DNA of 64,000 nt from an uncultured Lachnospiraceae bacterium (GTDB taxonomy: Bacteria; Bacillota; Clostridia; Lachnospirales; Lachnospiraceae): contig CAMBLG010000002.1 of NCBI GenBank assembly GCA_945868435.1, forward strand, positions 124,001 to 188,000. Reading direction: 5' to 3'. Under the pieces are notes generated by a model. It was not told the origin of the DNA. It did no database searches and saw nothing but the letters and a program-made list of their open reading frames with translations. Positions 15,800-52,751 of the stretch are shown here, piece after piece. The stretch's first letter is position 1; the number at the start of each line of letters is the position of its first letter. A program made the position numbers and the translations under genes.

Positions 15800-16137
15800 A
15801 AAAAAAGTCGCCTCCTTTTCGCACTTTTAAATAGTACGACAAGCGGTGACTGTACACATTCCCGTGTGTGTCATTGCGGTAAGGTGCCACGAAGTGGCGG
15901 ATTCCTTATCGCCCTCTTCGTAGTATGGTGTACATACTGACAGATTCCTTATGGCCACATCGTGACCACTCTCTGTCCTACGCATCCCTCGCAGTACTTC
16001 ACACGTTGTTTCTACCTCTGGTAGACCGTATTGTTTGTACAGTGACTTGTCGTCAGTTTCCTAACTTGACATTCGCTCCACGGAAAACCTGCCACGAAGG
16101 CAGCAACCTCACGCTTCTCAGCTATCATGCCACAGCA
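15800..16137 (-). promoter_or_regulatory. Structured leader of the S10 operon
   Basis: The roughly 340-base untranslated leader has a long-range closing stem in two parts. 16036-16053 and 15836-15856 pair as ACGACAAG/CTTGTCGT and ACTGTACA/TGTACAGT, with a small internal loop. The enclosed 180 bases contain more hairpins, for example GCCAC-TTC-GTGGC near 15886-15898 and ACACAC/GTGTGT near 15855-15872. The closing stem ends about 20 bases before the rpsJ ribosome binding site. This shape fits a ribosomal-protein autoregulatory leader, but I cannot match it to a named family. Confidence 0.6.
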
Positions 16138-49026: not shown

Positions 49027-49602
49027 TTAAAATGTTAATATTCCTAGGTGCTCAAGCAATATTTTGATTCCGATTACGACAAGGATGATGCCCCCTGCGA
49101 TCTCCGCTTTCTTTTTGTAACGCGTACCAAAATAATTGCCCATGGCAACACCGGCAATCGACAACACGAACGTCGTAACTCCGATGATCACAATTGCCTC
49201 AATAATCGGAGTGTCCAAAAATGCGAAGGTGATTCCCACCGCAAGGGCATCGATACTGGTGGCAATGGCCAAAAGCAGCATCTCTTTATGGTTCAACGGC
49301 GGATCCTTCTCTCTGATCTCCTGCACGTCTTCATCCTTCACAGCCTCGATAATCATCCTGCCTCCGATAAATACCAGCAGCACAAACGCGATCCAGTGAT
49401 CAACGGATGTGATATACTGTTGGAACCGGATTCCCAACAGCCATCCAACAAAAGGCATCAGCGCCTGAAATCCACCAAAATACAGACCAATCACAACTGC
49501 CTGCTTTTTGTTCACTTTCTCCATGGCAAGCCCCTTGCAGACCGACACCGCAAATGCATCCATGGCAAGTCCGATTCCGATCAAAAATAATTCGATACCC
49601 AT
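49027..49602 (-). CDS. mntP: Manganese efflux protein MntP
   Basis: MntP exports Mn2+ when it is in excess. From the ATG at 49602 (AAAAAGGAG site) it has 191 residues with six helices in two repeats, including GIGLAMDAFAVSVCKG and LLLAIATSIDALAVGI with the family Asp residues. The yybP-ykoY leader directly upstream, which senses Mn2+, supports this assignment. Confidence 0.93.
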   Translation of the reverse strand: MGIELFLIGIGLAMDAFAVSVCKGLAMEKVNKKQAVVIGLYFGGFQALMPFVGWLLGIRFQQYITSVDHWIAFVLLVFIGGRMIIEAVKDEDVQEIREKDPPLNHKEMLLLAIATSIDALAVGITFAFLDTPIIEAIVIIGVTTFVLSIAGVAMGNYFGTRYKKKAEIAGGIILVVIGIKILLEHLGILTF

Positions 49603-49636
49603 TTTCTTCAGTTCTCCTTTTTCGCATCGGTTCCAT

Positions 49637-49697
49637 AAAAAAAGACCCACGTATGCACACACTTCCCGCATAAGAAGTTATGTACATACATGAGTCT
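49637..49697 (-). terminator. Expression-platform terminator of the Mn2+ riboswitch
   Basis: On the minus strand AGACTCATGTATGTACA pairs with TGTGTGCATACGTGGGTCT (with bulges), followed by seven T. It lies between the aptamer and mntP and would be disrupted when Mn2+ binds. Confidence 0.75.
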
Positions 49698-50138: not shown

Positions 50139-50164
50139 TCCCTCAACTTTAATATGGATACCGA

Positions 50165-50511
50165 TAAAAATGAGTAATAAATTAGCACCATCCGAATCTT
50201 CTACATCGGATGGTGCTAAATCTCTTCATTGTCCACTGGACTATACCTCTCTTTACTTTTCTCTTGTACATTCAACTTCTTCCGTTCTCTATCGTGGCCT
50301 TTGGACTGGCTTTGTATTCGATCAATGATTACTATTCAAAACTCCATCCTGTTCCTCTTCTTATCTTCTGCCACTAGTTTCTTGAATTGAATGTGGTGCT
50401 TGGGTTGCTTCTTACCTTAACTTATGTTCCCTTTGGACCGTACCTCCTGTTCTTAAATTTCATCTCGGGATCTTGTCTTTCCCTTTCTTTGTTTTCTCTT
50501 GTTTTGTTGTT
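50165..50511 (-). ncRNA. Purine-rich candidate RNA with promoter and terminator
   Basis: On the minus strand TTGACA (50541-50546) and TATATT (50518-50523) are 17 bases apart. The transcript would start near 50511 and run about 340 bases, very rich in A and G, to a perfect 14-bp stem (TTAGCACCATCCGA at 50182-50195 with TCGGATGGTGCTAA at 50206-50219), then a T-rich tail. It contains only very short reading frames, one of 29 codons ending inside the stem. It could be a small RNA or an attenuated leader of the 82-residue frame that follows. I recognise no known family. Confidence 0.45.
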
Positions 50512-50517
50512 GAATTT

Positions 50518-50546
50518 AATATATCACTCAATTATTCTTTTGTCAA
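50518..50546 (-). promoter_or_regulatory. Promoter of the candidate RNA
   Basis: TTGACA (50541-50546), 17 bases, TATATT (50518-50523) on the minus strand, in a very AT-rich context. Confidence 0.55.
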
Positions 50547-50667: not shown

Positions 50668-50722
50668 CCTATTTCCTATATTTGCTATATTTACTCTATT
50701 TACTATTTTTACCTATTTTACA
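50668..50722. repeat. Short AT-rich tandem repeats beside the array
   Basis: Six to seven imperfect copies of CTATTTAC-like 8-10-base units (such as CTATATTTGC, TCTATTTAC and CTATTTTAC) run up to the 82-bp array. They may be bent or melt-prone DNA. No coding sense. Confidence 0.5.
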
Positions 50723-50744: not shown

Positions 50745-51437
50745 GGGTCTGGGAGACGATTTCTTTCTCTGAGACCCGCGGCTTGTCCTATTTTCTCATT
50801 TTTCTTTGCCCCAGGTACTGAGCCTCGGGTCTCTGTGAACATTTTTGTCCCTGAGACCCACAATCCGGCCTTATTCTTTATTTTTCCTTGGACCCGATGC
50901 TTCAGCTCGGGTCTCTGCGAACATTTTTATCCCTGAGACCCGTGGCTTGTCCTATTTCCTCATTTTTCTTTGGTCTGAGTACTGAGCCTCGGGTCTCTGC
51001 GAACATTTTTGTCCCTGAGACCCACGGCCGGACCTCATTCTTTATTTTTCCTTGGTCCGGGTGATTCGGCTCGGGTCTCTGCAAACATTTCTGTCCCTGA
51101 GACCCACGGCCGGACCTCATTCTTTATTTTTCTTTGACCCAGGTACTGAGCCTCGGGTCTCTGTGAACATTTTTGTCCCTGAGACCCACAATCCGGCCTT
51201 ATTCTTTATTTTTCCTTGGTCTGGGTGATTCGCCTCGGGTCTCTGTGAACATTTTTGTCCCTAAGACCCACAATCCGGCCTTATTCTTCATTTTTCTTTG
51301 GCCTGAGCACTGAGCCTCGGGTCTCTGCGAACATTTTTATCCCTGAGACCCGTGGCCGGACCTCATTCTTTATTTTTCCTTGGACCAGATGCTTCAGCTC
51401 GGGTCTCTGCAAACATTTTTCTTCTCCGAGACCCGCG
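50745..51437. repeat. Nine-copy tandem array of an 82-bp hairpin unit
   Basis: GGGTCT starts at 50745, 50827, 50909, 50991, 51073, 51155, 51237, 51319 and 51401, exactly 82 bases apart with no slip. Each full unit begins with an inverted repeat GGGTCTC...GAGACCC (7-bp stem, about 19-base loop) and continues with a T-rich linker such as CTTTATTTTTCCTTGG. The linkers alternate strictly between two types, so the true unit is a 164-bp dimer. The first and last copies diverge. As 82 is not a multiple of three it cannot code for a repeat protein. The function is unknown. Confidence 0.9.
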
Positions 51438-51549: not shown

Positions 51550-51594
51550 TATATGAAAAGCCCCTGCACAGCAATTCTCCTGCCGTACAGAGGC
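51550..51594 (-). terminator. Terminator after the YhfC-type gene
   Basis: On the minus strand GCCTCTG-TAC-GGCA pairs with TGCT-GTG-CAGGGGC and is followed by TTTTCATATATTTTC. It lies about 190 bases past the stop codon. The bases between 51595 and 51779 show no gene. Confidence 0.6.
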
Positions 51595-51779: not shown

Positions 51780-52622
51780 TTAGTTCGCGGCTCCCTCATC
51801 CACAACCGGTGCCTCAGCTTCCACTTCAAATCCTACAACATCCCAATTCTTTCTGCACAAAGATATGGTAAGCGCCACAACCCCCGCGACCAGAACGGCC
51901 AGCATAACCTCAACCAATACAAGGTTCAGATAATTTGCCGCTATAACCGTGGCAAAGTCTACGCCTGCATGAATTGCAAAGGCCAAAAACCAATAGCGCT
52001 TCTTTCCAAGCTTTACCGCTTGGAATACAAGAACGGACAGTGCAATATGAAGCGTAACAGCAACGATTCTCTCGATTCCGCTGAGGAAAAACTGATAGGA
52101 TGGCGTCGTCCACAAGGCGGAAAGCTGTGTAAGTGTAGCCTCCTTTGTAGCCTGATCCAGCGCTCCCAGACTCGCTTCCAACGTTCCCGCATTGATCATA
52201 ATCGAGGTTACCAGATTGCTGACACTGGCAAGTCCCACAATAAGAATTGCCTCAATTCCGCCATGTCCCACGCCATACATCAACGCATTGGGAAGATTCA
52301 GCTGCTTTTTCATGGCAAAACGCATTGCCACGAAACGTCCGACTTCTTCAAATAAACCAGCTGCAAGACCTCCATACAGACCATAGATCCATATATTTCC
52401 GGTAATGCGTTCTCCGCCAACGCCCAAAACGACCGCATGCAGAATCTGCTCCAGTACCATCGCAAACAGGAAAAATGTCGCAGCGCCAATCACCGCCATA
52501 GCCATCCTCGCCTTCGTCTTCTTGTGTACGACAATCAACAATACCACCGGTAGCGCAATACTGATGCAAAGCGAAAAGATAATTCCCGCAAACGTTCCAG
52601 CTCCAACATGTCCGATTTCCAT
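51780..52622 (-). CDS. YhfC family glutamic-type intramembrane protease
   Basis: A 280-residue membrane protein with seven to eight helices. The paired glutamates and Arg in GLFEEVGRF (about 104-112 in the longer frame), GHGGIEAIL and HAGVDF match the YhfC (DUF2324) family, relatives of the CAAX/PrsW-like membrane proteases. I start at 52622, behind AAAGGGG; an ATG at 52661 is possible. The tail is acidic. The substrate is unknown. The 82-bp array lies beyond its terminator. Confidence 0.82.
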   Translation of the reverse strand: MEIGHVGAGTFAGIIFSLCISIALPVVLLIVVHKKTKARMAMAVIGAATFFLFAMVLEQILHAVVLGVGGERITGNIWIYGLYGGLAAGLFEEVGRFVAMRFAMKKQLNLPNALMYGVGHGGIEAILIVGLASVSNLVTSIMINAGTLEASLGALDQATKEATLTQLSALWTTPSYQFFLSGIERIVAVTLHIALSVLVFQAVKLGKKRYWFLAFAIHAGVDFATVIAANYLNLVLVEVMLAVLVAGVVALTISLCRKNWDVVGFEVEAEAPVVDEGAAN

Positions 52623-52751
52623 AACTCCAATCCCCTTTCTTTGAATATCGGCCCTCTGCATCTTCTTTCCGCAGAATTGTCCTACTCATTCTACCATAAG
52701 GCACATCACAAACACCGGAAAGATGAATGCATGAACAAATAGAAGATACCT

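Follow-up and report, generated by a model that had tools for sequence, protein, structure and literature searches.

Phased arrays of short inverted-repeat units in Lachnospiraceae are linked to a family of nuclease-like proteins, both by physical proximity and by co-occurrence in genomes, and the half-sites from which the units are built differ between homologues of these proteins. For the array in the window (the whole 64-kb stretch of DNA analyzed here), the explanation that we favor, with some but not strong confidence, is that the array consists of duplex binding sites of a cognate nuclease-like protein, the two forming a repeat-nuclease duo. The cognate of the window array is very likely P0001, whose gene lies on a different contig of the source genome.

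The array in the window and its surroundings

The array is made up of nine inverted-repeat units of the form GGGTCT-N21(22)-AGACCC, each 33 to 34 bp long. The features referred to below are as follows.

50745..51434, no strand: array of nine dyad units, period 82 bp, equal to 8 helical turns (TRF and pattern search)
50745..50777, no strand: unit 1, edge unit with divergent core, GGGTCTG...GAGACCC
51401..51434, no strand: unit 9, edge unit of 34 bp with divergent core
51556..51594, minus strand: candidate intrinsic terminator of the yhfC-type gene, a hairpin then TTTT, seen by eye
51780..52661, minus strand: YhfC intramembrane metalloprotease gene (PF10086, from Pfam), which reads into the array
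G000:C26:25097-25855, outside the window: gene of P0001, the candidate cognate protein of 253 aa, which adjoins a GGGTCT array

The units start at 50745, 50827, 50909, 50991, 51073, 51155, 51237, 51319, and 51401, and each of the eight steps between them measures exactly 82 bp, in agreement with the first-pass annotation of this DNA, which had reported GGGTCT nine times at 82-base steps without insertion or deletion. The span that it gave, 50745 to 51437, was right at its start, but the last unit finishes at 51434, and the 7-bp arms (GGGTCTC...GAGACCC) that it ascribed to seven inner units are present in six of them and not in the seventh, as unit 7 terminates in TAAGACCC; what all nine units have in common is 6 bp per arm. 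TRF recovers the 82-bp period, together with its multiples, at a score of 649 and 78% matches (78 to 87% over whole units). A repeat protein, which the annotation had discounted, was likewise rejected here for the window array. Adjoining the array, at 50669 to 50721, TRF also finds a short AT-rich tandem repeat with a 27-bp or 9-bp unit.

The closest neighbors that could be assigned to a Pfam family are the genes encoding YhfC and, at 49027 to 49671 on the minus strand, MntP. The yhfC-type gene is not thought to be part of the array system, and its candidate terminator sits between the gene and the array. A conserved noncoding stretch at 50160 to 50530 (minus strand), with a terminator-like hairpin at its end, also lies beside yhfC in the congeneric genome G448 (locus L088, about 1030 to 1440), and the hairpins of the two genomes differ by changes that look compensatory. 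This stretch has no Rfam family and is possibly an undescribed small RNA. A tie between the array and this neighboring candidate RNA was rejected, as the RNA is kept in G448 without the array, which is absent there at the homologous place; the sequences are too diverged to show borders. Beside another yhfC of the same genus (L093 in G017), there is a TGGGCG palindrome array of 71 to 72 bp spacing at about 1097 to 1418, on the opposite side of yhfC from the window array. An Rfam scan of the window gave a sole match above the gathering score, an S10-Clostridia ribosomal protein leader at 16047 to 16127 (minus strand, 94.7 bits), and none at the array.

GGGTCT arrays are dispersed in the source genome and recur in relatives

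The window array had been described as an orphan, and this description does not hold. The pattern GGGTCTN{20,22}AGACCC occurs 83 times in the source genome (G000), and 77 of these units fall within the 18 dispersed arrays that we examined, the remaining 6 being unplaced. Chance is excluded, because the reversed-pattern control gave 0 matches against these 83 and the pattern has 0 matches outside the array in the 64-kb window. Spacings in the source-genome arrays are 81 to 82, 91 to 93, 103, and 114 bp. The cores of different arrays resemble one another more than shuffled cores do (mean best likeness of 14.0 out of 21 positions versus 9.2), and therefore some arrays at least are related copies. 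Arrays are found at the ends of contigs C1, C4, C7, C23, and C26, so draft assemblies probably under-count them.

By crude ORF calling, every array with a visible neighbor (16 of the 18) is located on the downstream side of a gene and always in the same strand orientation, with the sense strand of the gene reading toward the array being the purine-rich strand of the array in 16 of 16 cases. A tie to the function of the neighboring genes was rejected, given that the 30 proteins flanking the 18 arrays have unrelated Pfam families (4 have none); they include flagellin, MFS transporters, a GlgB-like enzyme, a RecD2-like helicase, and Fe-hydrogenase.

Among 39 relatives besides the source genome, GGGTCT units number 14 in G021, which is of the same genus, 1 in each of two genomes, and 0 in the others; across 397 Lachnospiraceae genomes (source included), three have at least three units (80, 22, and 5). 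When a two-unit pattern was searched in 84,980 species genomes, 19 stretches matched, 17 of them in Lachnospiraceae metagenome-assembled genomes (MAGs), and the Caldiserica and Streptomyces matches (L055 and L056) were discounted as either chance matches or repeats of another kind. The same pattern has no match in viral contigs. Several of the elements in Lachnospiraceae MAGs are themselves palindromic, with four units at 81-51-81 bp, and their cores and linkers are unlike between copies. It is the half-sites and the distances that persist across genomes while cores and linkers diverge.

Spacings follow the DNA helix and the arms change without compensation

Unit spacings overall fall into classes of 51 to 53, 62 to 64, 70 to 75, 80 to 84, 91 to 93, 103 to 106, and 114 bp. 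The 158 spacings of 62 arrays cluster at 51 to 53, 69 to 72, 80 to 83, 91 to 93, 103, and 114 bp; with each array contributing a single value per class (n = 85, leaving out five spacings of 131 to 134 bp), R reaches 0.85 at 10.2 bp, against 0.37 for the largest of 5,000 nulls, and the phasing computed on distinct integers alone has a p of 0.0008. These statistics omit L102, L103, and L106, which are duplicates, and L118, L122, L145, and L157, which are weak. The class means fit 10.44 bp per step, and the spacings of the independent held-out set (n = 44) give their maximum, R of 0.80, at 10.45 bp (largest of 3,000 nulls, 0.48); they add classes at 61.5 to 64 and 73 to 75 bp, with 44.5, 95.5, and 123 bp lying outside. 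It is clear from these results that the spacings are quantized at about 10.4 bp, which is one helical turn, and it follows from the measured phasing that the unit centers of the GGGTCT group lie at approximately whole turns from one another at 10.2 to 10.3 bp per turn. Six arrays from a nine-locus set are mutually in phase and about 0.2 turn off the main set, which counts against our main reading.

Of 159 distinct units in the GGGTCT group, 129 have intact arms. The 30 changed units, some of which may be out of register, are altered in one arm only in 24 cases, in both arms without pairing in 5, and in both arms with pairing in 1. At positions 15, 16, and 17 of the 33-bp unit, A/T accounts for 80, 94, and 98% of bases, compared with 26 to 79% at positions 7 to 14, which fits a dimer site with a deformable A/T center. 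These observations bear directly on a structural RNA, one of the options in the first-pass annotation, under which the array would be a hairpin-rich transcript or a 3' UTR element. Inverted repeats and the fixed strand orientation behind genes in the source genome are what such an element would show, but the arms are non-compensatory (24 of 30 one-sided and 1 of 30 paired), the spacings track the helical repeat of DNA, and Rfam offers no match, and we regard this reading as very improbable. The other options listed in that annotation, a protein-binding array or a mobile remnant, come close to the evidence.

An array of the TACGGTT type, a sister type of GGGTCT, occupies the same place in two congeneric species (G067 and G386), with flanks 95% and 80% identical. 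Copy number and sequence differ between the two orthologous arrays, and the 50- to 53-bp register is kept; this result comes from one region pair, another pair that we compared having given no alignment. Neither insertion borders nor target duplications were found around arrays, which weighs against the main reading. The first-pass annotation had proposed that random, non-compensatory stem changes and a lack of conserved position would point to a neutral minisatellite. The changes are indeed non-compensatory, but different genomes retain the half-sites and the phase, and position gives a divided answer, with the TACGGTT array holding its place in two congeners and the array at the window locus missing from G448. 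Homogenized units within arrays and the copy-number difference between the orthologous arrays are compatible with a minisatellite; set against these are half-sites and distances common to genomes in which cores and linkers diverge, the phasing, and the linkage to a protein family, and we give this explanation next to no credence.

The main rival to our reading is a nucleoid or boundary function, in which a protein would wrap or bridge phased arrays behind genes, acting via supercoil or transcription insulation, with the nuclease-like domain being incidental or regulatory. The helical phasing, the A/T-rich centers, the register maintained at the orthologous place, and the downstream position and fixed orientation of all 16 source-genome arrays with a visible neighbor would all suit such a role in chromosome architecture. 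However, arrays are patchy between genomes and come in many half-site types, and the proteins described below have nearly invariant nuclease motifs and exist as several diverged copies per genome, so that we consider this rival unlikely.

A family of nuclease-like proteins adjoins the arrays

Comparison of the ORFs near arrays across genomes revealed one recurrent protein without a Pfam family, located 53 to 85 bp from arrays in three genomes (source included), with 50 to 54% identity among its representatives; the other cross-genome match was a single locus pair sharing two proteins at 0.8 to 4 kb from arrays. The source genome has one intact copy of the gene, encoding P0001, besides two fragments (G000:C6:14176-14604, L219; G000:C35:481-591, L222). 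A GGGTCT array starts 53 bp past the P0001 gene, and contig C26 ends within it. As contig C23 opens with the same 27 bases as are found at the array end of C26, the array next to P0001 may continue on C23.

P0001 has matches in 8 of 11 genomes searched and none in G448 and G436, which are congeners, or in G454 (SIG298); G454 has arrays despite this, which is at odds with the main reading. Profile A2, constructed from 18 homologues, matches 143 of 397 sampled Lachnospiraceae genomes, with 1 to 7 matches each among those listed. In a sample of 398 genomes from across the phylum, A2 is matched over its full length in Lachnospiraceae only (5 genomes, source included), and the matches outside this family are partial and mostly within larger ORFs.

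Members are about 253 aa in total, with an N-terminal part of about 130 aa, which probably binds DNA, followed by a C-terminal PD-(D/E)XK-like domain. The PDC-S68 models are matched by 18 of 18 members and PDC-S69 by 16 of 18, the match lying at the C terminus in member 1, for which it was mapped. HEAT_CxxC_PDDEXK is matched by 11 of 18, with a best E value of 3e-8. The motifs RSKSE (49/52), PDF (51/52), and EHxG (49/52) are nearly invariant. No canonical lysine of motif III was found by eye, and a profile search for a relative in the PDB gave none. Model matches and conserved acidic motifs point to membership in the PD-(D/E)XK superfamily.

Of eight relatives in viral contigs, seven match from residue 134 onward only, and L163 is nearly full-length at 28% identity; seven plasmid relatives reach a coverage of at most 64%; and three relatives lie on "phage" scaffolds that carry no annotation, with coverage of 96% and 81% for two of the three. 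The repeat score was passed by 1 of 11 viral and phage loci (L166, at 3.0, with widely spaced copies). A viral origin was rejected, as viral contigs lack the two-unit pattern and the relatives in them are mostly partial. A role in defense or self-recognition, in which the nuclease would attack invading DNA while the arrays titrate, store, or mark, draws on the C-terminal domain shared with PDC-S68 and PDC-S69 and on the divergence of specificity between homologues. The likeness is, however, limited to that domain, and the absence of the two-unit pattern from viral contigs also argues against it; we judge this role improbable.

Arrays and proteins are linked across loci

The linkage between protein and palindromes was quantified with a detector that calls at least two inverted repeats of 26 to 44 bp with a common 6-base arm, at least two of them within 260 bp. 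Of 52 homologue loci, 33 were positive; four homologue fragments and two duplicates had been removed from this set, and L127, a frame without nuclease motifs, was kept in it (it is omitted from the protein tree). With settings unchanged, 7 of 9 further homologue loci were positive. In a held-out test with settings fixed beforehand, 38 of 60 homologue loci were positive, compared with none of 20 loci picked at random in genomes that bear homologues and none of 60 shuffles (Fisher p 1.5e-7); the 22 of 60 held-out loci at which no array was detected count against the main reading. An earlier form of the detector, without the distance rule, called a single shuffle out of 174 and one yhfC locus out of 14, the latter being L093, which looks like a real array. 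Five of 29 pattern-fetched loci were positive, and 5 of 5 of these were in homologue-positive genomes. About two thirds of the members examined adjoin arrays, mostly with half-sites other than GGGTCT. Outside Lachnospiraceae, 1 of 18 single-domain loci was positive (L216 in G602, at 1852 to 1962); here two TTAACC palindromes, separated by 70 bp, lie close to a sequence that the profile matches with its N-terminal part only.

At 29 held-out loci the arrays lie upstream of the gene only, at 3 they lie downstream only, and 6 loci have them on either side. This bias leaves room for autoregulation atop other roles, and it counts against the main reading in that an operator would also yield it. It is nonetheless quite improbable, in our judgment, that the arrays are autoregulatory operators only, controlling the linked gene while the other copies are chance leftovers, as most source-genome arrays are far from the gene, G260 has CCGACT units at several places, and at P0001 and L103 the GGGTCT array comes after the gene, on its downstream side.

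Half-sites are diverse and track the proteins imperfectly

Across 75 labeled loci there are 61 different outer 6-mers, some of which are register shifts of each other, and examples of half-sites are GGGTCT, TGGGCAAG, CCGACT, TACGGTT, and CGTGGGCC. Loose chaining, with shifts and one mismatch allowed, reduces the 61 to 20 groups, one of which holds 50 loci. For the labels, the weak loci L118, L122, L145, and L157 were dropped and L111 was added by hand. In the protein tree, TACGGTT-flanked proteins cluster together with a support of 89, and the two CCGACT-flanked proteins share a starred clade that also contains L122 and L148. The proteins flanked by GGGTCT are split over the tree instead of making up a single clade, a point against the main reading.

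At least three TACGGTT units are found in 6 of 397 genomes (29, 26, 19, 11, 11, and 3 units; control at most 2). All nine genomes with at least three GGGTCT or TACGGTT units are homologue-positive (Fisher p 9e-5, with the threshold of three units having been chosen after the counts were seen). In 20 genomes, CCGACT units number 28 in G260 and 5 in G455, both of which have CCGACT-flanked homologues, 3 in G452, 1 in G327, and 0 in the other 16. In G452 no CCGACT-flanked homologue was seen, and G453 has 0 units even though its L122 protein sits in the CCGACT clade; both cases run counter to the main reading. The match between motif and protein is therefore strong but not perfect.

A proposed repeat-nuclease duo

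Under the explanation that we favor, the nine units in the window would be double-stranded DNA sites for one protein, each 33-bp unit acting as a dyad in which two GGGTCT half-sites face each other across the A/T-rich center. As the units are close to whole helical turns apart, bound protein would align on one face of the helix. Protein dimers may bind each unit at its two arms and act cooperatively from unit to unit, with nicking or cutting in the A/T-rich middle and repair from neighboring or sister copies. Such repair could multiply units in tandem, homogenize them, and seed related arrays elsewhere, and the outcome would be a selfish or domesticated duo, somewhat like REP-RAYT. Binding, dimerization, cutting, and repair-driven spread are steps that we infer. 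More tentatively, and with doubts that outweigh our confidence, we suggest that this is a new selfish or domesticated system, in which a small PD-(D/E)XK-like nuclease builds, homogenizes, and spreads its own phased duplex-target arrays by cutting between half-sites and copying existing arrays, and in which specificity has diverged repeatedly within one bacterial family, as suggested by the number of different outer 6-mers among the labeled loci.

If true, this has several implications. About a third of Lachnospiraceae genomes, going by the 143 of 397 sampled, would carry an apparently undescribed repeat-protein system, and these are abundant gut bacteria. The system would be a second, unrelated solution to the job done by REP-RAYT and would provide many natural proteins, each paired with its own recognition sequence, and the origin and persistence of dispersed bacterial repeats would become testable.

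Comparison with known systems

The first-pass annotation knew of no described element of this shape, and we likewise found none in open-access literature, the search having covered neither preprints nor most subscription papers. The arrays resemble CRISPR in that a partly palindromic unit recurs in regular direct repetition, but cores and linkers here repeat within the array, with a period of 82 bp and conserved arms of 6 bp. A CRISPR, which that annotation had also dismissed, was rejected, as the window array does not consist of near-identical repeats with unique spacers. With PDC-S68 and PDC-S69, candidate phage defense proteins of PADLOC, the proteins here share the C-terminal PD-(D/E)XK-like domain; the PDC-S68 models, however, have about 1200 to 1270 positions against about 250 aa here, and only the last 125 or so residues match (member 1).

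The Ssn GIY-YIG nucleases of Neisseria have their own repeats and act on single strands, and they resemble the present family as small nucleases with a genome-dispersed cognate repeat. Their nuclease fold differs from it by motif, and we know of no phased arrays for them.

The closest parallel in the way the system works is with REP/BIME sequences and RAYTs, which are short palindromes scattered over intergenic DNA and dedicated nuclease genes often flanked by their own repeats, in matched pairs (PMC3733652, PMC8266576), the RAYTs being HUH (Y1) enzymes that act on folded single-stranded REP (PMC8266576). A RAYT system as such was rejected, as 7 of 10 genomes with arrays, source included, lack any match to Y1_Tnp (PF01797); the three with matches are G021, G067, and G455. 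Nor do the units have the form of a REP hairpin of 20 to 40 bp with a GTAG tag; no tag is visible by eye in the listed units, which are dyads with 6-bp arms and about 21 bp between them. The protein here is PD-(D/E)XK-like, arm changes are non-compensatory, and the arrays are helically phased, all of which set the system apart from REP-RAYT. What the two have in common, as a likeness of working and not of membership, is a gene flanked by cognate repeats that are also dispersed through the genome.
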